A stretch of DNA of 64,000 bases, taken from contig OY101115.1 of assembly GCA_956465555.1 (NCBI GenBank), positions 2,728,001 to 2,792,000 on the forward strand. The letters are read 5' to 3'. Below are positions 1 through 36,201 of this stretch, piece by piece (position 1 is the stretch's first letter; each line of letters begins with the position of its first letter). The translations under genes and the position numbers were made by a program. Below the pieces are notes generated by a model. It searched no databases. It was given only the letters and a program-made list of their open reading frames with translations, and was not told the DNA's origin. The stretch is from Nitzschia sp. pyKryTriq1 (taxonomy: Eukaryota; Bacillariophyta; Bacillariophyceae; Bacillariales; Bacillariaceae).

Positions 1-1413
1 ACCCGGACCACCTGGTTGACCTCCCTGGGATGGGAATTGTCCACCATACGGTGGAGGTCCGCCAGCGTAATGGTTCACAAAACCGCCACCCGCAGGTTGG
101 TCTTCCTCGCTGTAGGGAAACGGAGCAGAAGAATATCTATCGCCAACATTTCGGAATCCACCTTCATGTGCTCCTGGGGTCCCTTGAGAAGTTGCACCGT
201 ATCCTTGGACTTGGCCCATGGGGTATGGAGCAGAACTTGCGCCGTGAACCAACGCCGCCATTTGTTCTTGCGAGATCGGCTGAGGTTGAGGGTGCGAAAG
301 CCCTTGCTGTTGCGGAAAACCCTGCATGATAGGAGGAGGAGACATGACCGGAGATGGACTGGAATAAAAGTAGCCTGGGATGCCATGTTGTCCCATAACT
401 GGTGACCGGCGACCACTGGCTGCAGTCATCTGGCTGGAAGGACGGCCGTCGGCACCAACCTCATGCAGTTCAGCCTTGACACTAGGATCGCTAGTCGTTC
501 CGGACGTTCCGTACGACGAAACACTACTACTGGCCGACTTGTTCGCAGCATGGTAGCCTCCACGGCCATCATCACTACTATCCGAGCTTACCAGGGAGCT
601 GACAGAATGCATGCGCGTAATACGTTGGGGATATAGGTTCATATCCGCAACAGCGCCATTCGGTTGAATCATCGGCGGTATTTGAACACCGTGTTGATGA
701 TGCATCTCCTCATCACTCTCATCTGAAAAGGACAAACTAGCGTCGCTTTCTTTTTCCGCATTGTTCTGGTAAAACCCTGCGGCCGGTGTTCCACCCGCCG
801 AGCCCGTACTCGAGTATGAATAGCTACGTCCACTTTTCGGGGTAGGCAAATTCTTTGCAAAGTACGAATCGTCGTCAGAAGAGGAACCATCGTCGTCGTA
901 CTCATAACGCCGACTTCGGGAGCGTCGTGATTTTGAACTCGAAGCTTTCTTCGCGACATCGTCACCAGTAGCCTTACTTTCCTGTCCCTCCTCAGGCGCT
1001 GAGCCATCGGTTTTTGCGGCTTTCTTTGCTACCGGCGCCTGCTCACTGACCTCACTACTAGTAGGTTCAGGGTCACTCGCCTTTTTCTCATCAGGGATCT
1101 GAGGCACGGAAATGATCGGTGCCGCCGCAGTCAATTCAACCTTCGGACTCTCTGGAGTGACTGGCTGAGGAGCAGCGGGTTGCTTTTCTACAGTTTGCTC
1201 TGTCATGTCCACGTCGGCCTCCAGCTCCGGCCTCTGAGGCTCTACTTCCACGGTCGATTCAGTATCAACGCTAAGACCCTCCGAATCATGCGAAGGGTCG
1301 TCCTTTGACAGGATCTCCATTGCCGCGTCGGGAGCAGCGGTTGGTGCAACCTTCACCATGGGATCGCTAGACGGTAATTCAGTAAAAGCAGTCGAGGGAA
1401 CGTCGTGCATCAT
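1..1413 (-). CDS. 5' part of a large low-complexity protein (runs off left edge)
   Basis: An open frame of 471 codons starts at a tandem ATG-ATG (1413-1408) and runs without a stop to base 1, so the gene continues beyond the window. The visible part has no recognisable domain. It is acidic and rich in Pro, Glu, Ser and Ala for about the first 150 residues. A basic-serine patch (RRSRSRRYEYDDD) follows, then Ser/Asp tracts, then a Gln/Pro/Gly/Tyr-rich stretch (PPPIMQGFPQQQ and similar). This looks intrinsically disordered, as in RNA-binding, nuclear or scaffold proteins, but that is inference. No signal peptide or membrane segment is seen. The even reading through 1.4 kb and the codon use favour a real exon. 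The first of the two ATGs is chosen as start. A catalytic domain could lie further left. Confidence 0.7.
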   Translation of the reverse strand, partial: MMHDVPSTAFTELPSSDPMVKVAPTAAPDAAMEILSKDDPSHDSEGLSVDTESTVEVEPQRPELEADVDMTEQTVEKQPAAPQPVTPESPKVELTAAAPIISVPQIPDEKKASDPEPTSSEVSEQAPVAKKAAKTDGSAPEEGQESKATGDDVAKKASSSKSRRSRSRRYEYDDDGSSSDDDSYFAKNLPTPKSGRSYSYSSTGSAGGTPAAGFYQNNAEKESDASLSFSDESDEEMHHQHGVQIPPMIQPNGAVADMNLYPQRITRMHSVSSLVSSDSSDDGRGGYHAANKSASSSVSSYGTSGTTSDPSVKAELHEVGADGRPSSQMTAASGRRSPVMGQHGIPGYFYSSPSPVMSPPPIMQGFPQQQGLSHPQPQPISQEQMAALVHGASSAPYPMGQVQGYGATSQGTPGAHEGGFRNVGDRYSSAPFPYSEEDQPAGGGFVNHYAGGPPPYGGQFPSQGGQPGGPG

Positions 1414-2593
1414 TCGATCCCAAGAGACTACAATCTGTATGTGCCAACCGATACAAGTGCGCGAATAGCCCCACTTCCGTATGTAATCTCGCGCCGTGGG
1501 AACTCTTTTTTCGGCCACTAAATCTGCCGTGTTCGCAGGCTTCTTTTTCTAACCGGACCGTCCGTGGGCAAAAATAGACAGTTTCCGTTCACAAGAAATC
1601 AACCAACCAAGAAAGGGTGTGACGAACTACTACCACTAATGCTATGGTCCAATGTCAGTGGTGATCACAACAGATGATATGGCTTGACGCTTCAATGGTT
1701 CGAAAATATCGAAACGAAGGATGAAGGATGAGAAGTTGCTTGCTTCCACCTGCCTGCGTTGATGCGCAAGACACACATGATGTCGATGTTGTGACAAGCT
1801 CCGCCAAAGTGTACGTACTATGGGAAATTGACCGCCCATCCGGCGCGCAATAAACATCTACATGGTCGAATAATGTATTGTGGTATGTGATCAGACAAGA
1901 TTCAAAATTTTGGCGAGGGGAAGTGGCTGCTTTTCGTCCGTCGGATGTCCCTTTTGACATTCGCCGGCGTTCAATGCACATCAGAGAACCATGATGGACA
2001 TACAAGTACTGTACCGCAGCGTACTACGCGTATTTGGAGGGCGGCGAACCAGGAATTCTCGTTTCCGCCTGATGGCGGGGCGAACCATTAGTCTTTTCGC
2101 GCGCGCACACGCACAACAGCAGCGTCACATTTTTTGGGGGGGATGGTTGACAGGGGGGCGCGACGGGGGGGGGGCGGGTGCTTCTACTGTACCGTACAAT
2201 ACTGTATGCACCTGTACGGTACACTATGTACCGGAACACCAGGGGTACAGTACCTGGTACGGTACCTGGTACTCGTACCTGCGCGGTACCTATACCAGGG
2301 GGTACCGGTACGCACGGGGGTGTAGATGAAGTCTACCGGTACTCTAGTAGTAGAGGCCGCCTACCGGTATTGTCGGCACTGTACCTGGTATCGATACAAA
2401 AATCTATTGTTGAGCTCTGCTCTTGCTACCTGTTGCATTCTCTCTAGTAGCTAGAGAGTACTCGGGACTCGATTTTACTCGCAGTCTACTCTAGGAGTGT
2501 CCTCGTCGTAGCAAGCAAGTTGGACAACAGCACAGAACTACTGATAGCCTCCATACTTCGTACGTACGAGTAGTCTTATATTCTTAACTCAAT
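1414..2593. other. Intergenic stretch with a palindrome cloud
   Basis: No gene is supported here. It lies upstream of the left-edge gene and downstream of lysA. Bases about 2195-2420 are packed with short self-complementary words such as GGTACC, TACCGGTA and GTAC, preceded by a G-run near 2150-2180. CTAG-cored words (CTCTAGTAGCTAGAGAG) follow at about 2440-2460. The short open frames are low-complexity by-products of the repeats. Confidence 0.6.
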
Positions 2594-4121
2594 TTAAAAT
2601 ACCCCGGAAATATCGATCTCATTTTGGTAGATTTGTTCGAGTAGCTGGCGTTTTCGGACCAAATGAGGCTTGCCCTCCTTGTCCACAAGAACTTCTGGTG
2701 CTTCGGGGAAAGAGTTGTAATTCTTGGTGCTCATTCCGGAGCAGTAGGCGCCACTGCCATCCATGACTACAATGTCACCAATTTCTGCCTTTCGAAGTGT
2801 ACGTTCTGCCAAATCTTCAGGCTCACCAGGCTTTGGAGTCATCAGGTCTCCACTTTCACAGCAGTGACCTACCACAACAACGTCTTCCGTTTCCGATCCG
2901 ACGTCGGCCGCGAGACCCGAACCGGGAAGGACTGTCAAGGGATGAATGGCACCATACAGTGATGGTCGCAAAACGTCTGTCATACCCGCATCCAACTTCA
3001 AGAATGTATGTCCCGATTCTCCAGTCGTAACGACCTTGTCCTGAACAGTCGAAACAAGTGCCCCTGCCATTGCGACAAGATATGTTCCTGGTTCAATTTC
3101 CATTTTCAACTTGCGACCAGTATCTTCTGCAAATTTCTTGAAGGCTTCCTTCACTGGCTTTCCGATTTCTTGCAAATTGGTCGTTGGTTCCCCTGCATTT
3201 CTTCCGACCTTGTAGCCTCCACCCAAGTTGCAGGCCTCCACAGTCGGCCAAATCATGCAAAAGGACAAGGACTTAACAGCGACTTGCTGCCAGATACCTG
3301 GGTCGCTTCCGGATCCAATGTGCGTGTGAATACGTTCTACGGTCAAGCCATACTTTTCAACAATATCTGGGACGGTACCATCGGACACCAGCTCGTGCCA
3401 AATTCCAAACGATGATGAAGGTCCACCAACATTGGTCTTGCTGAAAGCAGTCGTCGACGCCGAGAATCCTCCAGAGCCGACACCTGGGTTGACACGGATA
3501 CCCACTTTCTGCCCAGTACCCTCGAAGGCCTTTCCGAAACGTTCCAGTTGAGAGACCGAGCTAAAAAGTAGAAAAGAGATGTGAGTGGGTTCCGAAACGC
3601 TTGCAACAAAGAATTCGCCCAGTCTAGAAATCAAAAGATTCAACTCACCATGCATTCACTTTAACCCCCATCTTCACAAGCTCTGCGAAATCTTCTGGCA
3701 ATTCTTGGGTACTAAGACTGATGTTTTCAGCCGGAATTCCAGCGGACATGGCTCGTCTGCATTCATATCCCGACGAGGCGTCAATATGAATTCCCTTGGA
3801 ATTGAAATACTTGAGAATGGATGAGTTGGGACTGGCTTTCATAGCATATCGCACAGTGAGTCCGTACTCATTCGGGAATGCTAGGCAGGCGTTAGCGGAC
3901 TCTTCGAGCTTTTGCAATGAATACGCATAAACTGGACTTCCGGCCAGTTCGATGCATGCTTTGGCGGATGCTGGATCCAAAAACAACGACTTTTCTGGGT
4001 TAGCCATGTTCAACGCGGACATTTTCGTCTTGGATTGGAATGTGATAGCATTGAAGGCGACGCATGAAGAGATGGTCGATGCCACAGAAAGAGCCAGAAC
4101 TGCAGTTGGAATTATTCTCAT
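2594..4121 (-). CDS. lysA: Diaminopimelate decarboxylase, plastid-targeted
   Basis: Catalyses the PLP-dependent decarboxylation of meso-diaminopimelate to L-lysine, the last step of lysine synthesis, expected in the plastid. Two exons, 4121-3649 and 3560-2594, flank an 88-base intron (GTGAGT...TAG) and give 479 residues. The N-terminus is a signal peptide ending at SCVAF, a diatom ASAF-like site, so plastid import is inferred. Family motifs are clear: the PLP lysine in RYAMKAS (K95), HIGSGSDPGIW, NLGGGYKVG, EIEPGTYLVAMAG, the CCESGD catalytic cysteine motif, and GAYCSGMSTKNYNSFP near the C-terminus. An in-frame upstream extension exists, but the chosen ATG sits just before the hydrophobic core. 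Ornithine decarboxylases share the fold, but CCESGD points to LysA. Confidence 0.93.
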
Positions 4122-5258
4122 CGCTGATGATCTTCGAGTTGTTTGGTATTCAACTTTCCGGAATTTGTGACCAATCCTCCTTCCGCTCTTGAAAACCAAA
4201 ATAATATTGAAAATGGTCGGCTCTCGTTGAACAAAGGATCGGATGCCCGTCGGAGTCAGATTTTTGATGGCTTCTCTCTCCACCTGACTGTCTGTAATTT
4301 CATTTGGATATTTGGTGTTAAAATGAGTGTTTTGGAAAATAATTGAATGGAATCGTTTATGTTTGTCCTTTTATCTTCTCAACTTTCCTCTGTTATCCGT
4401 TTTCTGCAAGATGTCGATATGAAACGTGGACCAGGAGATGGGTGCATGACAGACACCGACATTCGATTGATTACAGTACATATCGCATATGTACCATCAG
4501 AATCAGACTACATACCGGTACACCTGGTACCATACCGGTACCTGGCACTGTACCGTACAGACTACCGGCACCGGTACAGTACCAGGTACCAGTGCCGTAC
4601 CAGGTACCAGGTACCGGTACTGTACTTATTGACTTCAGTCTTGCGTCTCCCGTCTCCCTCCGTGCTTGCTCGCCCAAACGTGCCATCGATCTTGGAACGA
4701 ACGTCCTACTAGATCGCACCTACCGGTACTCATGCTGAGTACCGGATACTTGAAATCTTGTTGAGGACAACCATTGCTACTAGTAATAGGAAAGCAGATA
4801 AGAGAGCCAGAATGCTGATGGTGTTTCTTTGAGCTTAGTAGTAACTTCCACTATTGGAGTAGTAGTAGTAGTAGTAGAGAAGAAGGGACGGAAAAAGGAA
4901 GAACAACTGCATGAAATTTTGAAAAAAATTGAGAAGAGACAATTTCCAGAGTTTGGCTCTAACGACTTCTACTACTAGCTCGTCTACATTAGGAGTACGT
5001 GTATACCGGTAAGCAATAGCGCCAGTTGAACGCTCTACTACTAGAGGACTGGTACTTTACCAATATGAAAATCCTCTACTAGCCAGAACAACGCAGCACA
5101 GACTAGACCTATCGTACAAGGTAGTATTAGGTGGTGAAGGGGACGTAATAAAATTTCATGCAATCCCTTGCTCTAGAATTACATTATTTCTTATGGTGTA
5201 CACATATTCTTATGATCGATACCCAAGCAGACAACCCCCTTCTTTCTATTTCGGCTTT
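4122..5258. other. Intergenic stretch with GTAC palindromes and an AGT repeat
   Basis: This is the promoter side of lysA and the 3' side of the next gene. Bases about 4500-4740 hold many overlapping GGTACC, TACCGGTA and GTAC words, as at 2195-2420. A (GTA)n microsatellite lies at about 4857-4878. Further CTAG/GTAG words occur to about 5080. No coding or RNA gene is supported. Confidence 0.6.
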
Positions 5259-6350
5259 CTATTTCGGAATGGTGGCAGAAGAAGTGACCAACCAGCGGAC
5301 CGACCACTCGCCTAGCTCAAACGGCCACAACGCAAGGTTCAAAGGGAAGGGAAGTTTGAATCCGATGCCAAGCTGGAAGATGAAACCCATGGCAGCAAAA
5401 ACATATGACAACATTTCGTCAACCATTGTATCTTCATGGTTGTCCTTGATGAGGCCTCCCAAATTGATGTTACGCTCGACAAGCGCTGCATAGGCAGCTC
5501 GGGCCATCATGAGGCCTCCAATCAAGGCGGATGCAAAAGCCGAACGGACAGACTGAATATACCAAGCAATGGACATTCCAATGGACTTGCAAATCCTTGG
5601 AGAGAGAGGGAGAGATGAGTAGTTAGAAGAGTTCTTGCCTTGTACGAGACCCATCAGTTCAGCTGTGTGCGGAATCAATCGTTCAACTTACCAACCTAAA
5701 ATGACAGGGACCCATTTGTCGTAATCATCCGGAACAACCTTCTTGATCGTAGGAGCCACATATCTATCAATAGGCTGCTTCATAAAGTCGGAAATAGCGA
5801 GCGCCAAAGAAATGGCCCGAGCAAATTCAATCGTGAGAACTGCAGCGACCGCCAGCCACACTCTGTACACGCTGTTGATCGCATTGTCGATTTTATGCGG
5901 ATCCATCTTCTTCAAGACCAGCAGAAATTTTCGCTGAACAAATTCCTTAGTGGCAAGTTGGTCGACGTCCGCTTTTCCGTCTCCATCATCATCCACTTTG
6001 TCGTCCTTCTTGGACTCGTCGATGATTTTCAATGCTTCGTCCGAAATATCATGGACGGCGTCCATGACAGCCTTTCTTCCGCCGTATTCTGCCGCTTGAA
6101 TGGCCGCAAAAAGAACGGGATAGAGTCCACCAAAGAAGCAAAAGATAAAGCCAACAAGGAAGTTAAAGGCATTCGCAGGTAGCTTCTCGATATTTGCTCG
6201 GAGCAGGCGCCCATATTTGATCATCAATGGAATCGCGAAGACAATCGCATCCAGGAGAGGTTTAGCCAGTCCCTGCAGTTTCGCAGCAAGCTCAGCAGCC
6301 TTCTTGCTGGCATCATCTGCCTTTTTCTTCTCGTCAGTCTCAGTCGTCAT
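5259..6350 (-). CDS. Multi-pass membrane protein with an EF-hand-like loop, function unknown
   Basis: Two exons, 6350-5692 and 5595-5259, with a 96-base intron (GTAAGT...AAG), encode 331 residues. The N-terminus is charged and Ala/Lys-rich (MTTETDEKKKADDASKKAAE). Hydrophobic segments lie near residues 34-45, 63-88, 162-188, 217-236, 240-260 and 282-298. Between the second and third is an acidic insert (111-131) with DxDxDG spacing (D120, D122, D124, G125), like a calcium-binding loop but with Gln instead of Glu at the last position. I do not recognise a named family. Reticulon or REEP-like ER shaping is only a guess from the paired hydrophobic helices. The frame continues upstream into a transposon LTR without an ATG, so the ATG at 6350 is taken. 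A Copia element sits 153 bases upstream. Confidence 0.8.
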
Positions 6351-6503
6351 CTTTGGATATTGTGATCTGGGTTTTCTCTTTATGCCAGTTGTGACATGTG
6401 CAGTATGCAGTGTGTGACAGATGGATGCTTCTTCGTCCTTGCTTGGTCGTTGTTGCGAGCGAAGAGCGAAGATGATGCGAGCGAGGAAATGGAACAACCC
6501 AAT

Positions 6504-7775
6504 TGTTCGAATATCTACATCGAACGTCCACGGAACGACGGACGGACGCGACCAGCGTTCGCAATTACGCACGATCACGCACGACGCACGTTTCGATCAC
6601 GACCCAGAGATTCATTCTAAGACTCTCTGAGACAGTCTATGATCCCCCAAGAAACTATAAGAAGCCCACAGACTTCTATCGAAATACATGTCAACGATTC
6701 AAGAAAAGTAGAAATGAACAAAAGTTCATTTCATCAGTTAGAGCAAGAGCTCATTAATTTATGTTAGCGCACTTCGTTAACCCACAGTCAAATTAGTCCT
6801 TTAGCCCGAATCCCTGAGCCGCTAGCCACTGCCTAGAACTCACGGATTTTAACACGCTTCCTCTGCGCTAAAGTAAAACAAACAAACATCGACCATGGCT
6901 GACGCCAACAACAACCCTCCTGCTGCCGCTGCAGCAACCCACTTCGCTCTGACGCCAGCCAAGGCGACAGATGACGTCATCGACTACAACACCAAGCAAG
7001 GTACTGCGATCTGGCAAAGCGGATCCAAGAAACTCTCGGAAGAGCTCTTCGATTGTGTCCCCGAAGGGCTCCGCGACTTCCTCGAGCTAACTAAGAAGCG
7101 ATCTAAGCTAATGGGATGGGACACCTCCGTCATGTCCATCCTGGATGACCCGGACGACGTAGCAGGTCCAGCCAAGGACTACTTGGACCACTACGGCAGT
7201 ATCTCGCTAGAACACTTGCAAGCGAACGCACGTATCTACGCGGACACTCCAACTAGAGTGGCCCAAGACTCGATGATGCTGTTCACCGCCCTTCACGACA
7301 GCCTCTCCAAAATCGGGCGAGACAAGGTCACCCTGTACTCCGAGGAGTACACCATCGATGGAATAGAGTAATCGCCGATTCAGAGGGAGGCAACTTGCCT
7401 GACTCGCAAACCGAACGCCCGCCGACGCTTCGGAGCGACCTCGGGAGTACGCCAGGCGAACCCACACGGGCACATCCAATTACGCACGATCACGCACGAC
7501 GCACGTTTCGATCACGACCCAGAGATTCATTCTAAGACTCTCTGAGACAGTCTATGATCCCCCAAGAAACTATAAGAAGCCCACAGACTTCTATCGAAAT
7601 ACATGTCAACGATTCAAGAAAAGTAGAAATGAACAAAAGTTCATTTCATCAGTTAGAGCAAGAGCTCATTAATTTATGTTAGCGCACTTCGTTAACCCAC
7701 AGTCAAATTAGTCCTTTAGCCCGAATCCCTGAGCCGCTAGCCACTGCCTAGAACTCACGGATTTTAACACCCAAT
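6504..7775 (+). mobile_element. Copia-type LTR retrotransposon, internally shortened (fossil copy 1)
   Basis: The element starts with TGTTCG and ends with AACA at 7769. The 6-base direct repeat CCCAAT flanks it (6498-6503 and 7770-7775). The left LTR is 6504-6854 (351 bases); the right LTR is incomplete. An inner stretch just after the left LTR resembles the reverse complement of an initiator-methionine tRNA D-arm, a likely half-tRNA primer site. The inner region keeps only a gag-like start (MADANNNPPAAAA at 6895). The copy is broken and cannot be autonomous. Shared LTR parts look identical between the two ends, so it is young. It lies between the membrane-protein gene and the 3' side of TERT. 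Confidence 0.9.
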
Positions 7776-8055: not shown

Positions 8056-11000
8056 TTAACTGGTCTTGATGATTTTGTCAAGAGCGAAGCGATGATACGC
8101 CATCGCGACAGTTCCGTCCAGATCGCTCGAGGGAGAGTCTTGGGTCTGCAATTTTGTGTGGATGCGGTGGCCAAGTGATGGGAAATCATCAAGCTGGGTA
8201 AATACGACAGAGAAGGCATGCCATGTCAACCAAAGCAGAGTTTCGTCGGTAAGCGATAGCTTTCTTCGATCCGGACTCATTCTTCGAAGGTTGGATCGGA
8301 TTTGCCGGCAAACGTAAGAAGCCAGGGAGTCTATGCAGTCAATCAAGAAACCCTGGTTGTGTGATGTAGTTGGATTGACATCTGTACTTCGCAGGTGCTC
8401 GGCAGTCTTTACCGCCGAAAACAACATCATTTGATAAAAGTTGGTCACGATTGTTTTTCTTGTATTGATCGAGTGATCGTACAGAATTGGCAGACAGCGG
8501 GGTCTCGCAAAACTCTCCATCCTGCCTCCGAGTTTCTTTCCTTCGCTGCCAATGGAATCAACAGTCAGACTGTCCTTCGCCTGGTCACCTTGAAAGCGTT
8601 CATAGTCAATCATGACTTCGCCGGTGCGCGGATCGAAAAGCATACCGCACCAAGGGAATAGTTTGCCGTCAAATACATGCCTCCCTGGGGCGACAGGGGC
8701 CGACACTTCCTTCGGCCCTTCCTCGCCATCGACCTCAAAAATAGTCTCTTCACTGACGAGTGTTTTCTCTTTGTTGACCCTAACGCCTAGTTCCTCTCTC
8801 CCAGACCACATTCGCCCCAGAAAGTTTGAAACAGCAGGTTTGGATGTGCTCACAAAGAGGAAGTCGTCCACTAGACGTGCCAAGAAATCGGAATCCACCC
8901 GTTCCTCAGAAAGACGATCACTGACACGAGGTGACTGAGGGTTCTCTCCGTTCAGTATCAAGTTCTCCACATTTCCATAGTAGAGATTGCAGAATAGCAT
9001 GGATAGAATGCTTCCTTGCGATATCCCACCGGTTTGAATAAGGTATCGTTGCTCATACCGCCCTGACGTAACTAGGAGGTGACTACCAAGGTGCTCCAGT
9101 AGAAGCTCACAGAGCCTACCTCGTTGTACCAGATGCCAGGTGCGCGAATCCAGCACAGCGTTGCTAGATTTGCTTGAGATTTCCCGTCCCGCTGCGTGAA
9201 GAAGGCCATACAATTCCGGTGGTCCCACTATCTTCCTGGTGACTCCCTGAATACCCCCCGTGATGTCGTCTCCGTACAACAAGTTGTACCTTTGAATGAG
9301 GTAATCCTCATTGTTGATGTGGCGACTTGCAATGTCATACATGTATTTTTGGTTGATATTGTCGTAGCACTTCTCGATATCGACACTTGCAAAGATCAAA
9401 TTGAGAGGTTGTCCACGCCTCGTCTCGTTCTTCAGACCAGCGATGTAGCGTTGGTAGCGAGGATAGAATTCGTTCAAGCCTTCCAAACCCGACCCAAAGG
9501 GTAACCCGTGACGATTAGATTCGTAGGTCAACACATCAAAGACTTGAGCAAGGATAGAATTCGTCGAGTCATGAGATCGCCGCACAGGGTTGGATCCTAT
9601 CGATGTGAAAGGAGGAGGTACCGTAGAAGCTGTGAGGTCCAACTTGCGCCTTTTCGACGCCATCGAAAGTTCTTCCACATTGAGGGGATGAGGTTTGGAA
9701 AGATGGGCGATTGGACGTACACCGGTAGTCTTAGGAAGAAGACGAAGACGAGAAAACCCCATTTGATGAGACGAGAGGCATTTGATGACCTCAACATTGG
9801 ATAGCTCTCGAAACTGGCCTTGAAAGAGTAAACGCATGGACAGCGCGCGAAAGGCAGACCAGACAGGCTTTCGATAATAGAAGACTTTCTTGGTATTGAA
9901 TTCCGTTTCTGTGACATAAAAATTGGAGCGCAGCAGTGGTATGATAAAGCTACGGAACAGCCAACGAAAAACCTGGAGCGCCAATCGACTCGTCGCCTCG
10001 TGATCAGTCCGGGCAAGCTTGGCATTCTTCCGTTTGTCACCTTGCAACCATGCCAAATTCGTAATCCTGATACCATGCATGAGGCGCTTGTTTGAAAGGC
10101 ACTCTTTGCGACGAAGAAGGACAAACGCCTTCACAGCTTCAAGGATACAATCAAAATTGTGTTGTGACCCCCAAAAGTCTGGCGGGAAAACATGGCACAA
10201 AACGCTCCGTACAAAGGAAGCCACACTTTCGGGCTGACTGTAGCACTGAACAAGGAGCTTCAGCTTGATTTTATCGTCCATGTGATCAGTCAACCCTTCA
10301 CCCGTAGACCAATCAGGCAGGGGACAGTATCGTTCCATTGAACGGTGGTAGTCGCAATCCTTGCCCGAAGCTAGAATCTTTCGGCACAGGTCCACACCCG
10401 TTCCACGCAGACGTCGCCAACGCTTCCGTCGTCTTCCGCCCCTCGCTGTAAATAGGTTCGTCATGGAAGCCAGAAGCCTTTCGGGTGTCATTGTTGGAGT
10501 ATGAAATGGGTGTTTGTGATGAAAACCAACTTTTGGTGTGAACGAATCGGAATAGAACAAGGTGTGTCTGGAAATACTGTGATTCGCTTGCAAATGTTTT
10601 CCCATTTCGGCATGGTGCCGCCTTCGTTTCTTGGCAGGACGAGTGCTGCATGTTGTTACCATTGTTTGATCTGTCGAATTGGTCTCCACATCGGCCACAC
10701 GAATCTGTGAAATGGGCCCATTCGTCAAGGGTGGTCCACAAATCAGACTATAGTTTCCTCGAGGCACATCTTCCCGATTCTCGGATTCTAGAGGTACAAA
10801 AAGCCGAGTATGTAGAAGTATCATGCGTAACATCTCATCACCCACATAACAATGTAGATGCTGAAATAGCCTTGAGGTCTTGCAGAATGTGACATTGTCG
10901 TTCGCTTGCCATTGCGCCATCCCAGGCCGTGTCGATGGAAATTTCATACCCTGACGATTGCTCGGGTATTCACCTGGTGGCGAGGAAGAGAAGCCCTGAG

Positions 11001-11358
11001 CTAAAACATTCCTTCCATCCTTCTCTGTGCGCTTCCAACGATCACGGCGCTGTACCAGAGCCCACACCACATCATCGACAATAGTCGGAACGGGCTCTCG
11101 ACATTCTGTGGTTTTCAGGTGAAGAGCGGGCTTGATTGTCTCCAACGGTGATACGATCATCCTACAAAGCTCCTCTTCCACACCAAGGCCCACACCAGCG
11201 ACACTTCCTACTTTGAGCGAAGGAGCATAGCGCCCAAGAAAGTCGGCAAGGTGAAACACCTCATTGGGCGGAGGAAGAAGCTTTCGAATAGCGACCAGGG
11301 AATCTGTTTTCTTGGATCGTTCGCTCCTCTGTCTACTTCTGCGCTTTCTGGACGGCAT
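8056..11358 (-). CDS. TERT: Telomerase reverse transcriptase
   Basis: Catalytic subunit of telomerase, which copies an internal RNA template onto chromosome ends in the nucleus. One uninterrupted exon encodes 1100 residues, within the usual TERT size. An N-terminal TEN-like region ends in ICGPPL near residue 205. A QFP/CP-like block (FPPDFWGSQHNF...LAWLQ) lies near 389-430. The T motif is YVTETEF...FYYRKPVW near 479. RT motifs follow: LRLLPKTTGVRPI (1/2), VDIEKCYDNI with the catalytic Asp (A, about 658), GGISQGSILSMLFCNLYYG (B', about 774), LARLVDDFLFVS with the Asp pair (C, about 830), VNKEKTLVSEE (D) and FPWCGMLFD (E, about 900), then a C-terminal extension. Retrotransposon RTs lack the T motif and this motif E. 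Young Copia elements lie on both sides, 163 bases upstream of the ATG and about 280 bases past the stop. Confidence 0.95.
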   Translation of the reverse strand: MPSRKRRSRQRSERSKKTDSLVAIRKLLPPPNEVFHLADFLGRYAPSLKVGSVAGVGLGVEEELCRMIVSPLETIKPALHLKTTECREPVPTIVDDVVWALVQRRDRWKRTEKDGRNVLAQGFSSSPPGEYPSNRQGMKFPSTRPGMAQWQANDNVTFCKTSRLFQHLHCYVGDEMLRMILLHTRLFVPLESENREDVPRGNYSLICGPPLTNGPISQIRVADVETNSTDQTMVTTCSTRPAKKRRRHHAEMGKHLQANHSISRHTLFYSDSFTPKVGFHHKHPFHTPTMTPERLLASMTNLFTARGGRRRKRWRRLRGTGVDLCRKILASGKDCDYHRSMERYCPLPDWSTGEGLTDHMDDKIKLKLLVQCYSQPESVASFVRSVLCHVFPPDFWGSQHNFDCILEAVKAFVLLRRKECLSNKRLMHGIRITNLAWLQGDKRKNAKLARTDHEATSRLALQVFRWLFRSFIIPLLRSNFYVTETEFNTKKVFYYRKPVWSAFRALSMRLLFQGQFRELSNVEVIKCLSSHQMGFSRLRLLPKTTGVRPIAHLSKPHPLNVEELSMASKRRKLDLTASTVPPPFTSIGSNPVRRSHDSTNSILAQVFDVLTYESNRHGLPFGSGLEGLNEFYPRYQRYIAGLKNETRRGQPLNLIFASVDIEKCYDNINQKYMYDIASRHINNEDYLIQRYNLLYGDDITGGIQGVTRKIVGPPELYGLLHAAGREISSKSSNAVLDSRTWHLVQRGRLCELLLEHLGSHLLVTSGRYEQRYLIQTGGISQGSILSMLFCNLYYGNVENLILNGENPQSPRVSDRLSEERVDSDFLARLVDDFLFVSTSKPAVSNFLGRMWSGREELGVRVNKEKTLVSEETIFEVDGEEGPKEVSAPVAPGRHVFDGKLFPWCGMLFDPRTGEVMIDYERFQGDQAKDSLTVDSIGSEGKKLGGRMESFARPRCLPILYDHSINTRKTIVTNFYQMMLFSAVKTAEHLRSTDVNPTTSHNQGFLIDCIDSLASYVCRQIRSNLRRMSPDRRKLSLTDETLLWLTWHAFSVVFTQLDDFPSLGHRIHTKLQTQDSPSSDLDGTVAMAYHRFALDKIIKTS

Positions 11359-11521
11359 GGCACAAACACAAGGAAAGGACTAGCAACAGAACATGCTAGC
11401 GTGAAAGGTAAACAGGGTACTCTAGAGTAGTTTGTCGACATGAATGAAATGAACGAATAATTGCATTTGTAGACGAGTAAAGAAGTTTAGTGTCTGCTTT
11501 TTGATCCCTTGAAGCACGCTG

Positions 11522-12876
11522 TGTTCGAATATCTACATCGAACGTCCACGGAACGACGGACGGACGCGACCAGCGTTCGCAATTACGCACGATCACGCAC
11601 GACGCACGTTTCGATCACGACCCAGAGATTCATTCTAAGACTCTCTGAGACAGTCTATGATCCTCCAAGAAACTATAAGAAGCCCACAGACTTCTATCGA
11701 AATACATGTCAACGATTCAAGAAAAGTAGAAATGAACAAAAGTTCATTTCATCAGTTAGAGCAAGAGCTCATTAATTTATGTTAGCGCACTTCGTTAACC
11801 CACAGTCAAATTAGTCCTTTAGCCCGAATCCCTGAGCCGCTAGCCACTGCCTAGAACTCACGGATTTTAACACGCTTCCTCTGCGCTAAAGTAAAACAAA
11901 CAAACATCGACCATGGCTGATGCCAACAACAACCCTCCTGCTGCCGCTGCAGCAACCCACTTCGCTCTGACGCCAGCCAAGGCGACAGATGACGTCATCG
12001 ACTACAACACCAAGCAAGGTGCTGCGATCTGGCAAAGCGGATCCAAGAAACTCTCGGAAGAGCTCTTCGATTGTGTCCCCGAAGGGCTCCGCGACTTCCT
12101 CGAGCTAACTAAGAAGCAATCTAAGCTAATGGGATGGGACACCTCCGTCATGTCCATCCTGGATGACCCGGACGACGTCGCAGGTCCAGCCAAGGACTAC
12201 TTGGACCACTACGGCAGTATCTCGCTAGAACACCTGCAAGCGAACGCACGCGCACCGATGTGCACTGCAAGGTGTTTGAGGATAATTCCGGGGCTATCGA
12301 GATCGCACGATACCACAAGTTCCGCCCCCGAACCAAATTCCTCAACAACAAACTCTTCCACTTTAGAAGCTACGTCACGAAGGGTTGGATCTCAATCCAT
12401 CCTATTGGTACCTACGACCAACCGGCAGACATACTGACCAAACCGCTGAACGAGCCGGATTTCAAGCGTCACCGAAAGAGCATGAACGGATGGTAATCGA
12501 CTCACTGCCTACTCGCGAGAGGGAGTGTTCGAATATCTACATCGAACGTCCACGGAACGACGGACGGACGCGACCAGCGTTCGCAATTACGCACGATCAC
12601 GCACGACGCACGTTTCGATCACGACCCAGAGATTCATTCTAAGACTCTCTGAGACAGTCTATGATCCTCCAAGAAACTATAAGAAGCCCACAGACTTCTA
12701 TCGAAATACATGTCAACGATTCAAGAAAAGTAGAAATGAACAAAAGTTCATTTCATCAGTTAGAGCAAGAGCTCATTAATTTATGTTAGCGCACTCCGTT
12801 AACCCACAGTCAAATTAGTCCTTTAGCCCGAATCCCTGAGCCGCTAGCCACTGCCTAGAACTCACGGATTTTAACA
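11522..12876 (+). mobile_element. Copia-type LTR retrotransposon, internally shortened (fossil copy 2)
   Basis: Same family and orientation as the copy at 6504. LTRs are 11522-11872 and 12526-12876, both 351 bases, with TG...CA ends. I see one difference between them, so insertion was recent. The 6-base repeat ACGCTG flanks both sides (11516-11521 and 12877-12882). The primer-site-like stretch follows the left LTR, and a purine-rich tract (GCGAGAGGGA) precedes the right LTR. Inside are a gag-like start and a short RNase H-like tail of pol (for example VFEDNSGAIEIARYH). The rest of the coding region is absent, so the element is broken. It sits in the 5' flank of TERT. Confidence 0.92.
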
Positions 12877-17228: not shown

Positions 17229-17985
17229 GGGATGTTATCACAAACAATATTAAAGTGAGCTTATCTATTCGGTATTCGTAGTACAAAATAGTTCCTCATT
17301 TGACTCGTAGCCATCCTTGCCCACACTCGATCGTAGAACTCCTTTTCTTTTATGTACAGTAGCTTCTTCTTTGCCCTGCTACCAGTTCACGTACGGTACA
17401 GTACGAGTACTGTACTGGTAGTGTACTCGTACGTAGTCTCCCGGTACTTCTACCTGTACTATTGTGGATGTACCACCTACTTCTCTCTCTACTCTACTCT
17501 ACTAGTAGAGTAGAGTTGAGAGGAATGCTCGTACAACGCTCAGCACAAAAATACTAAACCTTCGTGCCCCCTCACTCCCCTCAATACACTTTTTGCTATC
17601 GGCTCATAGCATAGCAGCTACAGTAGTATCCATTGCGTGCTCTAAACTACTCTAGCACACAATTTGTGAGAATGGCGAATCGAATGAATAATATTATCAT
17701 CTCCCGGCTGTGCCCACTTTACTACCAGAAGTTATTGATTGCAATTTTAGCGTGGTACGATGTCGTTGTCCTCGTCCCTTGTGATTGGTCCCACACGTCA
17801 GCGCATGCACGAGGTCGTTGATTATGCAATTTCCCAGAATGATTCTCTTTGCCTGGTGTTCGCGCTGGAAGTTGTGATGAACACACGATGTCTCCGTAGG
17901 GCCCAGTACACTTTGAACAGCGGCCAATCTTCCGATGCTGAAGAGGTCTCGATTTCATGCATCAGTTTCAGTTTTGGTCTACTGT
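17229..17985. other. Intergenic stretch with GTAC/CTAG palindromes
   Basis: Bases about 17385-17525 carry dense GTAC words (GTACGGTACAGTACGAGTAC and similar) and a CTCTACTAGTAGAG palindrome. The remainder up to the solo LTR shows no supported gene. Confidence 0.5.
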
Positions 17986-18462
17986 TGTTAAAATCCGTGA
18001 GTTCTAGGCAGTGGCTAGCGGCTCAGGGATTCGGGCTAAAGGACTAATTTGACTGTGGGTTAACGAAGTGCGCTAACATAAATTAATGAGCTCTTGCTCT
18101 AACTGATGAAATGAACTTTTGTTCATTTCTACTTTTCTTGAATCGTTGACATGTATTTCGATTAAAGGACTAATTTGACTGTGGGTTAACGAAGTGCGCT
18201 AACATAAATTAATGAGCTCTTGCTCTAACTGATGAAATGAACTTTTGTTCATTTCTACTTTTCTTGAATCGTTGACATGTATTTCGATAGAAGTCTGTGG
18301 GCTTCTTATAGTTTCTTGGAGGATCATAGACTGTCTCAGAGGGTCTTAGAATGAATCTCTGGGTCGTGATCGAAACGTGCGTCGTGCGTGATCGTGCGTA
18401 ATTGCGAACGCTGGTCGTGTCCGTCCGTCGTTCCGTGGACGTTCGATGTAGATATTCGAACA
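17986..18462 (-). mobile_element. Solo LTR of the Copia family, with an internal tandem duplication
   Basis: This LTR belongs to the family flanking TERT, in opposite orientation. Its ends are TGTTAAAATCC at 17986 and CGAACA at 18462, and the 6-base repeat TACTGT flanks both (17980-17985 and 18463-18468). It is 477 bases instead of 351 because an inner block of about 120 bases is present twice in tandem (about 18036-18160 and 18163-18287). No internal coding region remains. It ends 171 bases upstream of the start of an Mpv17-family gene. Confidence 0.88.
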
Positions 18463-30189: not shown

Positions 30190-30812
30190 GTCGTGAATTG
30201 GATTCTCGATGTACAGAAACAGTCCCAGATGGAAATCCAATCGAATGAGTCTGCGATGCAATCGGGACGCTATCTTGGAAGCTATGTTCCGGCGGAAGCT
30301 ATCGTTTACTATACATTATAAAAAGAACGAAGAAAGAAAAACAATACTGATCGCGGTCACGCACGTCAACGACACCCTGTTGTGTGGAACAAAAAGTGCC
30401 ATCGCCGAATTTAAAACCGGAGTCAAGAAACGATTCGGCTGTACACCGAACACGACGGTTTTGTGAAACACCTTGGGGTATGGCACAAACAATTGAGGGA
30501 CGACAAGATAATGATGTTCCCATAACAGCGCATGCCACAAATTCTTTCCAAACAATGGAATTTGGATAACGATTGACGAGTCATTTTTACCGCGAATTCC
30601 ATCAGAATGAAACTATAAGAAGTCAACAGATTTCTATCGAAATACATGTCAACACATTCAAGAGAATACAAATGAACCAAACTTTATTTCATCAAGAAAG
30701 TATTCATCTCATTAATTTATGTTAGCGCACTTCGTTAACCAACAGTCAAATTAGTCCTTTAGCCCGAATCCCTGAGCCGTTGGCCACAGCCTAGAACTCA
30801 TGGATTTTAACA
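30190..30812 (+). mobile_element. Copia relic with a diverged LTR remnant
   Basis: The part near 30310-30460 reads like a Copia reverse-transcriptase piece around the YVDD region (VTHVNDTLLCGTKSAIAEF). Bases about 30605-30812 align by eye with the inner and right parts of the LTR found near TERT, but with many differences, ending TTTTAACA at 30812. No flanking duplication is clear. The copy is old and broken in several places, unlike the near-identical copies at 6.5 and 11.5 kb. The left limit is approximate. Confidence 0.75.
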
Positions 30813-31131
30813 CTATTTTCCTTCGGACGATTGAACTAGTCCGCGCGTGCCACGCGTGCCATCGAAAGTGCTCCCAGCCTCCAGAGGAGCTCGGACGGAC
30901 CTCGAGCCATTCCCTCTGAAATAATGACGACGAGACACCCACGACTGAGACGCTGATTTTCGATCGACACCTGGCGATATTAGACTATTCATAGTTGCAC
31001 AAAACAAGCAAAAGACCACCACACAATATCGGTAGTCTAATACTCGTACCGGCATGTACATATCCACCATCACTTTCAAACACTACAACAAAAGTAGCAC
31101 ACAATAATAACACCTGCCTCTCTCCAAAAGA
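30813..31131. other. Upstream region of the DUF1350 gene
   Basis: 319 bases between the Copia relic and the next start codon. I see no gene or clear regulatory site. Confidence 0.4.
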
Positions 31132-32496: not shown

Positions 32497-32722
32497 GTAT
32501 GGTCTACCGGTATATTATGTGAGCAGCGATAGACCAGAGTACTTTTAGAGGACTACTAGCTCCTTTTTGCGCACCTTTTTTATGATGTAGGTCAACTTCC
32601 TATAGTTCTGGAAAGAAGGTCGGGGGTCTACTCTAGAGAGTAGAGTATCGGTATCGTCGTAGGAGCGAGACGTCGATGAGAATTTCAATGATACGACTCG
32701 TACGACCAACGATTGGATTGGT

Positions 32723-32917
32723 TGGCGCAGGCGCCAACAAACCCTCAACTCTCTCGGACACTGTAGACCGATGGTATAGTACTGTTAGTGAAATAATTCG
32801 TTGGCCTATGCCCCTGATCGATTCCGATTTGCGTAGCAGGATCGTCCTCTCTCGGGGATACCCTTGGGTACATCTCCTTGCCTCGTCCTTGTCAAGGTGT
32901 GAAGGGATGGCGGGCGG
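32723..32917. repeat. Split direct repeat, block A (outer copy)
   Basis: 195 bases, identical by eye to 33080-33274. It starts TGGCGCAGGCGCCA and ends GGCGGGCGG. Confidence 0.92.
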
Positions 32918-32919
32918 GT

Positions 32920-33079
32920 TTTTAAAGCTAATTAATCTAGAATTCCGAAGTTGGGATTTGCGATACCGAGGTTGACTCGATGATCTTATGAGGTTCATCG
33001 GTCGTCTCTCTTGGTATCGGTTTCGGGTTTGGGTGTTCGTTCGACTTCTTGTCTGTCCTTCGTTCGTTGGGGGTGGCCA
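32920..33079. repeat. Split direct repeat, block B (inner copy)
   Basis: 160 bases, matching 34883-35042. It starts TTTTAAAGCTAATTAATC and ends GGGGGTGGCCA. It abuts A' directly; two bases separate it from A. Confidence 0.92.
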
Positions 33080-33274
33080 TGGCGCAGGCGCCAACAAACC
33101 CTCAACTCTCTCGGACACTGTAGACCGATGGTATAGTACTGTTAGTGAAATAATTCGTTGGCCTATGCCCCTGATCGATTCCGATTTGCGTAGCAGGATC
33201 GTCCTCTCTCGGGGATACCCTTGGGTACATCTCCTTGCCTCGTCCTTGTCAAGGTGTGAAGGGATGGCGGGCGG
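33080..33274. repeat. Split direct repeat, block A' (next to the ORF stop)
   Basis: Second copy of block A. It ends eight bases before the stop codon of the recombinase ORF. Confidence 0.92.
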
Positions 33275-33282
33275 CCATTGAA

Positions 33283-34863
33283 CTAGAAATCCAGCCTCAT
33301 CTCGTCGCCTTGGTTGTTCGCGTCGGTTCCTGAAAGGTCGACCATGTCCTCAGCGAGGTTGCTTGTGAGTTCGATGATCTGGGGTCTGATGTACGCCATG
33401 AATGCGTTGGATCTCCACCGCCCCAAAATCATGATCTTCATTTCTGAGTAGTTCCGTTGGCTAAGTGCTAGGGCCATGGCGGCGCCTGACCGTAGTGACT
33501 TGTTCCCAATTTCTTCAGGGTCAAATCCGAATGTCTTCTTTCCGCCGTATAGTCGGCAGAGATCTCTGATCGATTCCAGTACGATATGGCTCGTGATTCT
33601 CAACCGGTTTGGGACGGTCCCGACTGTGCAGAGGTCGGTCTCCTCGTTCCACCCTTCGACCCTACGTTTGATTCGCAGCACGGCCCACCCGATTCTCAGC
33701 ACCGGGTCCAGTTCGGGTTTTCTGGTTCGTCCTTGTGTTCTTTTGTCGAACTTGTCGCCGTTCTTCTGCTCTCTAAAGCGTAACGTAACGAATCGAGCTC
33801 GGGACAGGTCTTCTTCCGAGTTCACCTCCATTGGTTGTTTCGTCTCGTTTCGGAATGTGATGTCTCCCATCGTGATCCGTTTGGTTTTTCCGGGCTCGGG
33901 GGTTTCGGCGTATTCGCAGCATCGGCCAGCGAAGAAGAACATCCCGATGTAGACGTCCACCAGATGAGCGTTGAGGGTATTCCCAGCGTTCCTTCCACCG
34001 TCGTCGAGGGACTCCAGTAGCTTCTCTTGGATCCTAGTCATAGATTCCATGGCGTTCCGAAACAACGCTTCCGTCGGTGCTGGTGCTCCCGTCGCTTGTT
34101 GGTTTGTGGGTGGCCCGCTGGTTCCTCCTCCCAATTTTCTTTGTATAGCGATACACGCTCTCTCTACTTCTTCTTCGTCGGGAATCTCGTAGGTGATGCT
34201 CGTAATAGTCTTCTGGGATACCATCCACAACCACTGCATGAGGCCGTTGAGCTCCTTCTGCTCTTCGGTTGTATCGAAGACTTGCATCCCGTCGACGTTC
34301 TCCGATGCGCGAGGGTAGGTATTGATGATCTTCATTGCAAGATCTGAGGCCATGACGGTGCGGTTCGGCATAATTTGCCACAAGGTTGGGTGGGTCCAAA
34401 ATATCCCTCCTTTATACCCCGATGCAAGTTCGCCTCCGTCTCCGCTGGCTCGTAGGGCCTTGAAGGTCGCCGATGACGTGGCGCCGAAGAGTTCGTCTAC
34501 ACCTGGAGCTTTTCCTACCCTACGAGTGGTGGGGTTGAAAGTCCCTTCGATCGCGTCGTCGGTGATGGTGAGAAAAGTCCCGAGGTGACCCAACCCAGTA
34601 ACACCTACCAAGACGAAGCCCTCTTGGGTCTTCGCCAAGGTAATGTTGTGGACGAATTTGACTTCTCCTTCGTTCAAGGCTACCAACATTGTGGCGTCTC
34701 CACCTGAGGCTGCTACCTCGAGCTTCATCGTTTCGGTTGTTGTGTTGTTCGTCGGTTCGAGATTGTCGAGTGGCCCTTCCGATTTCGCCTTCGCCCATGA
34801 TCCTTCCTGTTGGATCCGCTCCTGGAGGAAATCCTTCCACTTCGGGTTACTAGGTTGCGCCAT
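33283..34863 (-). CDS. Tyrosine recombinase of the split-repeat element, with an unassigned N-terminal region
   Basis: One ORF of 526 residues. The last about 220 residues are a tyrosine recombinase (integrase fold). The first arginine is in MFFFAGRCCEY (R314), the core continues with ARFVTLRFREQKNGDKFDKR, box II reads NKSLRSGAAMALA (R458), then ILGRWRSNAFMAYIRPQ with the presumed nucleophile Tyr491. This spacing and the LGRW...YIRPQ form resemble DIRS/Ngaro and Crypton recombinases. Residues 1-300 match no domain I can name. They include KGGIFWTHPTLWQIMP and a Pro/Ala/Gly linker near 250-265, and might be gag-like (inference). No reverse transcriptase or RNase H is visible. The gene nearly fills the space between the repeats. 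Confidence 0.85.
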   Translation of the reverse strand: MAQPSNPKWKDFLQERIQQEGSWAKAKSEGPLDNLEPTNNTTTETMKLEVAASGGDATMLVALNEGEVKFVHNITLAKTQEGFVLVGVTGLGHLGTFLTITDDAIEGTFNPTTRRVGKAPGVDELFGATSSATFKALRASGDGGELASGYKGGIFWTHPTLWQIMPNRTVMASDLAMKIINTYPRASENVDGMQVFDTTEEQKELNGLMQWLWMVSQKTITSITYEIPDEEEVERACIAIQRKLGGGTSGPPTNQQATGAPAPTEALFRNAMESMTRIQEKLLESLDDGGRNAGNTLNAHLVDVYIGMFFFAGRCCEYAETPEPGKTKRITMGDITFRNETKQPMEVNSEEDLSRARFVTLRFREQKNGDKFDKRTQGRTRKPELDPVLRIGWAVLRIKRRVEGWNEETDLCTVGTVPNRLRITSHIVLESIRDLCRLYGGKKTFGFDPEEIGNKSLRSGAAMALALSQRNYSEMKIMILGRWRSNAFMAYIRPQIIELTSNLAEDMVDLSGTDANNQGDEMRLDF

Positions 34864-34882
34864 TGAATGGTTTGAAAGTTGC

Positions 34883-35042
34883 TTTTAAAGCTAATTAATC
34901 TAGAATTCCGAAGTTGGGATTTGCGATACCGAGGTTGACTCGATGATCTTATGAGGTTCATCGGTCGTCTCTCTTGGTATCGGTTTCGGGTTTGGGTGTT
35001 CGTTCGACTTCTTGTCTGTCCTTCGTTCGTTGGGGGTGGCCA
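34883..35042. repeat. Split direct repeat, block B' (next to the ORF start)
   Basis: Second copy of block B. It begins 19 bases upstream of the ORF start codon, so it probably holds the element promoter and forms the outer end. Confidence 0.92.
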
Positions 35043-35232
35043 CATTTCGGAGGAGGATTGCTCGTCGTCAAAGGTCATTTTTTCTTTTTGACGATGATGG
35101 GCCAAAGCTAAGCACCAACATAATCTAAGAATTGACGGCTCTTCATCTATCAAAAGGAGATGAACCTTTGGCGGCATTATCGTCGTTTCGCCTAGATTGT
35201 ATACCCTGACACGACAAACGAAAATTGGAATC

Positions 35233-36201
35233 ATGACGCAAACGATATTCCCGCTTGCAGCTGTTCTTTTATGCTTTCTTCATTCCATCCTCTTTGGGGA
35301 TGCTTTGGACCCCAATTTTGGCTCATTGGCCGGTGCCGTGAGATCTCACCGCCGGCTCCAAAGCGCGGATGAGCTATGTCATCAAGCTATGCTACAAACG
35401 CTGGGTGATCCGAACCAGGCGGCCTATGAGTGGGAATGTGCTTGCAAAGAAGTCAAGAATTCTTTGGACGGGAGCAGCGGGGCATTTCACTTGACTTGTA
35501 CCAGCACTTGCGGTCAATTTTGCAATCGGAAAAACGATGTTTGTCTTATCCCAGGATTCATCCAGGGTTTTGATGCCAACGGGGAAAACTATTTATTTTC
35601 CCAGACCTATCAGTACATTCAAGGTCGAATGGAATATGTCGATCGAAGTGTTTATTTCAATCTTGAGGGGGCACCTCTGGCATGCCAATATGGAATTGAT
35701 GAAACTCTCTGCCAGAGCTGTGAGATTACTCCGTGTATATCTGGTGGTGCACCAATCGATTTGCATTGTGAGAATCTGCGAGAAGGCACTACATTTGACT
35801 TTTGCTCCGATCCCACGCCGGCAGTCGAAGATGGCGTCTTTGAATTTCTCAACCCAGAAGATTTCACCGTGTGCACGCCCCTTACACCACCGACACCGAC
35901 TCAGGTAGAAACGACACCAACGACTCAGGTGGAAACGTCGCCGACGCAGGTAGAAACGACACCGACACAGATGGCAACATCGCCGACCCAGGTACAAACG
36001 ACACCGACACAGATGGAATCGACCCCGCCCCCAGTTCCCTCACCGACAATTCGACCGATGATGGGCAAGGTGCTGCCTCAGGAAGGTGGAGATCGAGATC
36101 GTGACACAGCCGTCAGTGGAAAGGGTGGTGCCTCTTATCAAAGCCCGATGCTCCTGATCGTTCATTTGTCATTGATTTCTTTGCTTCCGTTTCTCTCATG
36201 A
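35233..36201 (+). CDS. Secreted, Cys-rich surface protein with PTQ repeats, probably GPI-anchored
   Basis: A single exon encodes 322 residues. Residues 1-25 are a signal peptide (IFPLAAVLLCFLHSILFGDA). Residues about 45-215 hold many cysteines in CxC, CxxxCGQFC and CQSCEITPC spacings, suggesting a disulfide-rich extracellular domain that I do not recognise. Residues about 218-270 are a Thr/Pro/Gln tract with about seven imperfect PTQVETT/PTQMxTS units, likely an O-glycosylated stalk. The end is a hydrophobic tail (MLLIVHLSLISLLPFLS) after a Gly/Ser stretch, as in GPI-anchored proteins. Location at the cell surface or frustule is inferred. The ATG at 35233 opens the signal peptide; the split-repeat element ends 190 bases upstream. 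Confidence 0.8.
   Translation: MTQTIFPLAAVLLCFLHSILFGDALDPNFGSLAGAVRSHRRLQSADELCHQAMLQTLGDPNQAAYEWECACKEVKNSLDGSSGAFHLTCTSTCGQFCNRKNDVCLIPGFIQGFDANGENYLFSQTYQYIQGRMEYVDRSVYFNLEGAPLACQYGIDETLCQSCEITPCISGGAPIDLHCENLREGTTFDFCSDPTPAVEDGVFEFLNPEDFTVCTPLTPPTPTQVETTPTTQVETSPTQVETTPTQMATSPTQVQTTPTQMESTPPPVPSPTIRPMMGKVLPQEGGDRDRDTAVSGKGGASYQSPMLLIVHLSLISLLPFLS

Follow-up and report, generated by a model that had tools for sequence, protein, structure and literature searches.

Organization of the element

The window that we analysed, by which we mean the whole 64-kb stretch of DNA, contains genes matching the telomerase, Pex16, Nup93/Nic96, Rad4, XendoU and DUF1350 families. These place it in a eukaryotic genome, and DUF1350 together with the overall character of the genes hints at a photosynthetic stramenopile, perhaps a diatom. 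Within it lies a 2.3-kb element (2320 nt, 32723-35042) that consists of one long open reading frame (ORF) on the minus strand and two direct repeats of 195 nt (A) and 160 nt (B), each present twice. Read along the ORF strand, the order of the element was X1-ORF-Y1-X2-Y2, with the following features.

35042-34883, minus strand: X1, outer 5' copy of the 160-nt repeat (B' in the first-pass annotation), starting TGGCCACC; identical to 32920-33079
34867-34859, minus strand: 9-mer TTCAATGGC, first copy, overlapping the ORF start codon
34863-33283, minus strand: ORF of 526 aa, ATG to TAG, very probable tyrosine recombinase (YR) with unmatched N-terminus
34863-33994, minus strand: N-terminal region of the ORF, residues 1-290, relative not found
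33966-33343, minus strand: predicted YR catalytic domain, residues 300-507 (R314, K367, K455-x-x-R458, W483, Y491), 37% identical over 210 aa to the YR of contig L002 (see below)
33282-33274, minus strand: 9-mer TTCAATGGC, second copy, immediately past the ORF stop codon
33274-33080, minus strand: Y1, inner copy of the 195-nt repeat (A' in the first-pass annotation), starting 8 nt past the stop codon; identical to 32723-32917
33079-32920, minus strand: X2, inner copy of the 160-nt repeat, abutting Y1 with 0 nt at the junction GCGCCA/TGGCCA; identical to X1
32919-32918, minus strand: linker AC, 2 nt, between X2 and Y2
32917-32723, minus strand: Y2, outer 3' copy of the 195-nt repeat, ending GCGCCA; identical to 33080-33274

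The copies of each repeat were identical base for base, with all 355 repeat positions matching and 0 mismatches, and X and Y were unrelated to each other (matches of 7-8 nt only). The ORF took up the gap between X1 and Y1, save for 19 nt before it and 8 nt after it; together with the 2-nt linker, only 29 of the 2320 nt lay outside the repeats and the ORF. The first-pass annotation, made from the letters of the sequence, had described two apparently identical repeat pairs around one uninterrupted ORF in the order A-B-A'-ORF-B'. This is the reverse view of X1-ORF-Y1-X2-Y2, and the repeats, their order and the single ORF were all borne out. The structure of the element is certain, and its order corresponds to the A1-ORF-B1-A2-B2 arrangement of split direct repeats (SDRs), with identical pairs, in Ngaro/PAT-type elements. 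The claim that it had moved very recently stood in part: 0 differences in 355 nt limit divergence to roughly 0.8% or less (rule of three on 0/355), but retro-replication or gene conversion can also preserve identity.

On the plus strand of the window, exact 40-mer direct repeats occurred only in the element and in the blocks 6504-7770, 11521-12876 and 18037-18288. A search of the rest of the 64 kb turned up neither A nor B nor the ORF again, the longest outside match with blastn-short being 17 nt at 94% and the best tblastn match having an E-value of 2.7. A single copy in the window would fit a chance local rearrangement or an assembly error that had duplicated parts of the flanks of one recombinase gene. 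We regard this as the least probable explanation and a very unlikely one, in that two blocks in an order of known type, joints of 0 nt and 2 nt, and repeats lying beside the ORF at both ends are hard to obtain by one rearrangement.

The left host flank ends in ...CTCCGAAATG, and the right host flank begins with ACCAATCC. No target-site duplication was found at the boundary, where only AAT was common to the 8 host bases on either side. The match to the inner junction GCGCCA/TGGCCA broke off exactly at both outer ends; the ends therefore appear well defined, and in the present copy the crossover has left no bases in common. Within 10 nt on either side of the outer boundaries of this one copy, only GCCA was common, at differing distances from the ends. 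It was also all that was seen, 2 nt out of register, of the short (4-6 bp) terminal direct repeats of the Crypton type. The hexamer CAATCC occurred in both 20-nt host flanks (35043-35062 and 32703-32722, minus strand) at unequal distances from the boundary.

For the 9-mer TTCAATGGC at the two ends of the ORF, 62 of 20,000 mononucleotide shuffles had a 9-mer common to the start and stop stretches, a frequency that refers to one pair chosen post hoc. The pair may be due to chance or may be left over from the acquisition of the ORF, and it does not explain the X2-AC-Y2 joint.

The ORF and its relatives

Across 1000 order-1 Markov versions of the element, the longest ATG ORF had a median length of 117 aa and a maximum of 317 aa, compared with 526 aa in the real one. 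YRs are defined by the catalytic residues R...K...(H/K)xxR...(H/W)...Y in a C-terminal domain, all of which are present in the ORF, in FFAGRCCEY (R314), QKNGDK (K367), KSLRSG (K455 and R458, with KSLR at 455-458) and LGRWRSNAFMAYIRP (W483 and Y491). We take these six residues to have the catalytic roles that general knowledge of YRs assigns to them.

Relatives were recovered by running a degenerate DNA pattern for the last of these motifs over a genome collection. Three stretches were returned, of which L002 was a clear relative and L001 a weak one; the third, L003, with an open frame of 29 aa, was no relative and was rejected. L002 (JAJTHV010000291.1, 6671 nt) comes from a record labelled as a Flammeovirgaceae MAG and carries three long ORFs, Gag-like, reverse transcriptase (RT)/RNase H-like and YR, with the YR ORF after the RT ORF; the Gag-like ORF was named by its position and by a C/H-rich stretch near its end, read by eye. 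Over its full length (1-6671) L002 reads as a YR retrotransposon and is probably a eukaryotic contaminant in the bacterial MAG. The contig is without element ends, and the repeats in it are all short and imperfect, the longest being 41 nt at 83%; when its last 250 nt were used to search its MAG, the contig itself was the only match. The record of L001 (4206 nt) assigns it to a gammaproteobacterial MAG (AqS3, which we take to be a sponge symbiont). Its ORFs are Gag-like (zf-CCCH only at E 0.55), RT (RVT_1, E 1.1e-16) and YR (Phage_integrase, E 1.3e-5, at 25.5 bits under the curated cut-off of 27.1), and this YR retrotransposon (1-4206) is probably host contamination in a bacterial MAG record.

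The RT-like and YR ORFs of L002 matched no Pfam family at E ≤ 1 and no PHROG, and the RT-like ORF matched only chance chains in the PDB, none better than E 0.21; the naming of L002 therefore rests on L001 and on motifs. Its RT-like ORF aligned with the L001 RT at 25% over 316 columns, chiefly in the RNase H portion (E 4.6e-10; 49.3 bits, with 27.3 as the top score among 300 shuffles). Patterns written after reading the sequences also located RT and RNase H motifs in it, ordered as expected.

Between the L002 YR and the window ORF, identity was 37% across 210 aa, with a tblastn E-value of 2e-42 when three loci were searched; the alignment scored 151 bits, against at most 26.6 bits for 300 shuffles. 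The L001 YR matched that of L002 (E 7e-7; 36.2 bits, best of 300 shuffles 25.0) and, by a thin margin, the window ORF (E 1.5e-4; 29.3 bits, best of 300 shuffles 25.8). A profile of the window ORF and L002 matched the L001 YR with an hhalign probability of 84.8 (E 6.6e-6). R314, K367, R458, W483 and Y491 were invariant across the three proteins, and position 455 was K in the window ORF, R in L002 and H in L001. Judged by these alignments and motifs, the ORF very probably encodes a tyrosine recombinase. The enzyme class is well supported through a tie to the YR family in two steps, via L002 and then L001, without a direct profile match.

Searched directly, the ORF matched 0 families in Pfam, NCBIfam and PHROGs, and a sequence search of the PDB returned chance matches only (best E 0.93), as did a search with the profile of the window ORF and L002 (best E 1.1). 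AlphaFold models of the ORF were poor (mean pLDDT 31.7 and 43.0). Foldseek with the model of pLDDT 43.0 gave 216 matches at E ≤ 10, 0 of them at E ≤ 0.001, and no recombinase was named among the best 50 of the 216. The first-pass annotation had called the ORF a tyrosine recombinase and had suggested profile searches; the searches of the ORF itself gave that class no backing, and the backing came instead from its similarity to the L002 YR and, more weakly, to the L001 YR. Its description of the N-terminus as unfamiliar agreed with our results, residues 1-290 having no match in the family libraries, the three L002 proteins or the L001 YR. In this region, 182 of 300 shuffles scored as well as the real alignment with the L002 YR, and 189 of 300 as well as that with the L001 YR; with phmmer, only the gag protein among the three L002 proteins was hit (E 0.094), which we did not accept as a relation.

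The statement that the element encodes no RT also held, as the ORF matched no family and all but 29 nt were filled by it and the repeats. Neither an RT/RNase H, as in Ngaro, nor a methyltransferase domain, as in PAT and DIRS, was matched by this sole ORF. A YR as the only protein, with no RT, is a trait of Cryptons; absence of long direct repeats is another, and here the element differs by its repeats of 195 and 160 nt.

Searches for further relatives added none. Against 50,697 phage records, tblastn with the ORF gave no match at E ≤ 1. Among viral contigs, one stretch matched a pattern for the ORF and was not confirmed, 25 stretches were found with the L002 RT-like ORF and 56 with profile A2 (0 confirmed in each case), and DNA patterns for YR motifs and the Y1/X2 junction each gave 0. 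The ORF had one match in the MAG containing L002, namely L002 itself; it was found in 1 of 390 genomes of the order of that MAG, and profile A2 in 1 of 395 of its phylum, both being the same contig.

Comparison with known elements

Ngaro, PAT and VIPER elements are bounded by SDRs (PMC4157794, PMC8547959, PMC9210276, PMC12278014). In the accessible parts of these sources and of PMC6681497, SDRs belong to RT-encoding retrotransposons, short derivatives such as SIRE aside. Our element shares with Ngaro (DIRS order) the arrangement A1-ORFs-B1-A2-B2 and a tyrosine recombinase. It differs in having neither RT/RNase H nor Gag, in its 290-aa N-terminus without a match, in a K where the HxxR motif has its histidine, and in its length of 2.3 kb, compared with about 6 kb for the Cafeteria Ngaros described in the available text of PMC8547959. 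SIRE, the short form of VIPER in kinetoplastids, is described in PMC6681497 as A2 and B2 enclosing a stretch of about 30 bp specific to SIRE; VIPER with SIRE has SDRs in common with our element, and X2-AC-Y2 resembles the A2-short own stretch-B2 of SIRE. SIRE is the short form alone, whereas our element keeps a recombinase ORF and is missing the RT.

Cryptons are described in PMC3212892 as lacking both terminal inverted repeats and long direct repeats. The CryptonS group, known according to the same paper in stramenopiles including a diatom, likewise has a YR as its sole enzyme. It has terminal direct repeats of 5-6 bp and no long ones, whereas our element has long ones and short ones were not found. 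L002 resembles the element in its YR domain, including the conserved R314, K367, R458, W483 and Y491, and differs from it by its Gag-like and RT/RNase H-like ORFs, by R instead of K at 455 and by another YR N-terminus.

Mode of movement

The first-pass annotation had offered two readings, a passenger of a larger family or a distinct type moving by circle excision, and the evidence leans to the former. For an element that has SDRs and an intact recombinase, related to that of an RT-bearing element, but lacks an RT, the best reading is a passenger copied in trans. We therefore consider it moderately probable that the element is a non-autonomous YR retroelement with SDRs, devoid of RT and Gag, that has kept its own recombinase. 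On sequence similarity, the window YR appears nearest to the YR of an RT-bearing element (L002), in a comparison with only two YRs (L001 and L002), both RT-associated and neither a Crypton.

The proposed cycle follows the replication scheme of YR retroelements such as DIRS and Ngaro. Transcription would start in X1 and run through the ORF into the 3' repeats, and RT and Gag from an autonomous Ngaro-like element would copy the RNA in trans. The internal Y1/X2 joint, which is the presumed circle junction, would serve as the template for rebuilding the ends, yielding a circle joined Y/X. The element's own recombinase would then insert this circle into the genome at GCGCCA/TGGCCA without target duplication, and the element may supply or share this enzyme with its partner. 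Ngaro families are present in Ectocarpus, a stramenopile alga, according to the portion of PMC12477816 available, which makes an RT-bearing partner plausible if the host is a stramenopile. Weighing against the passenger reading, the window showed no second copy of the element, no RT-bearing element with the same X or Y is known, the repeats of the L002 contig do not mark it as an SDR element, L002 is only 37% identical and differs at the N-terminus, and a DNA element in tandem with a deletion derivative gives an identical map.

That DNA alternative would be a Crypton-like transposon (X-ORF-Y) in tandem with a deletion derivative of itself that has lost the ORF (X-AC-Y), in which the recombinase excises and reinserts circles and Y1/X2 is the attachment junction of the two units. 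It predicts the same anatomy, including the 0-nt joint, and a deletion could have left the 2-nt AC as its scar. In the parts of PMC3212892 available, Cryptons are YR-only elements, with CryptonS in a diatom and oomycetes; non-autonomous derivatives retaining both ends are known there, and most CryptonS have TATGG termini, from which the CATGG of the inner junction is not far. The GCCA common to the vicinity of both outer ends fits as well. We nevertheless hold this alternative to be possible but rather unlikely. It needs two events at one site plus a deletion removing almost exactly the ORF, the outer ends have no 5-6 bp direct repeat beyond the out-of-register GCCA, and the closest YR recovered belongs to an RT-bearing element.

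A self-sufficient recombinase-only element is a more doubtful prospect. It would use its SDRs without reverse transcription, circles excised at Y/X would reinsert, and the internal X2-Y2 would be a working part of the DNA cycle. If true, such an RT-free SDR element would be an intermediate connecting Cryptons with SDR retrotransposons. Also improbable, and more so, is that we see what remains of a complete Ngaro-like element after an internal deletion, confined to this locus, had removed Gag and RT, and not a family. The similarity to the L002 YR and the single copy speak for a relic, whereas the intact compact ORF, the N-terminus without a match in the L002 proteins and the identical repeats are unlike decay.

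The element bears on the origin of YR retrotransposons and on the formation of split repeats. The idea that YR retrotransposons arose when an LTR element joined a Crypton is cited in the section of PMC4157794 available to us. If an SDR element carries a recombinase of its own but no RT, this would point to separate elements as possible sources of RT and YR, and at 2.3 kb such an element would offer a minimal system for testing SDR function. We found no YR-only SDR element in the accessible parts of the open-access literature, a scope outside which most subscription papers fall, and this is no proof of absence in print.

Other features of the window

Near the element, at 35873-36201 (plus strand), lies a gene with a run of about 21-nt repeats coding PTQVET-like units; it has a mucin-like look, and its best Pfam matches were under the cut-off. 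A telomerase reverse transcriptase gene (8056-11358, minus strand; Telomerase_RBD E 6.5e-40) sits between the largely identical direct-repeat blocks 6504-7770 and 11521-12876, which are about 5 kb apart. A 300-nt unit of these telomerase-flanking repeats occurs again, inverted at 17984-18462 and diverged at 30609-30813.
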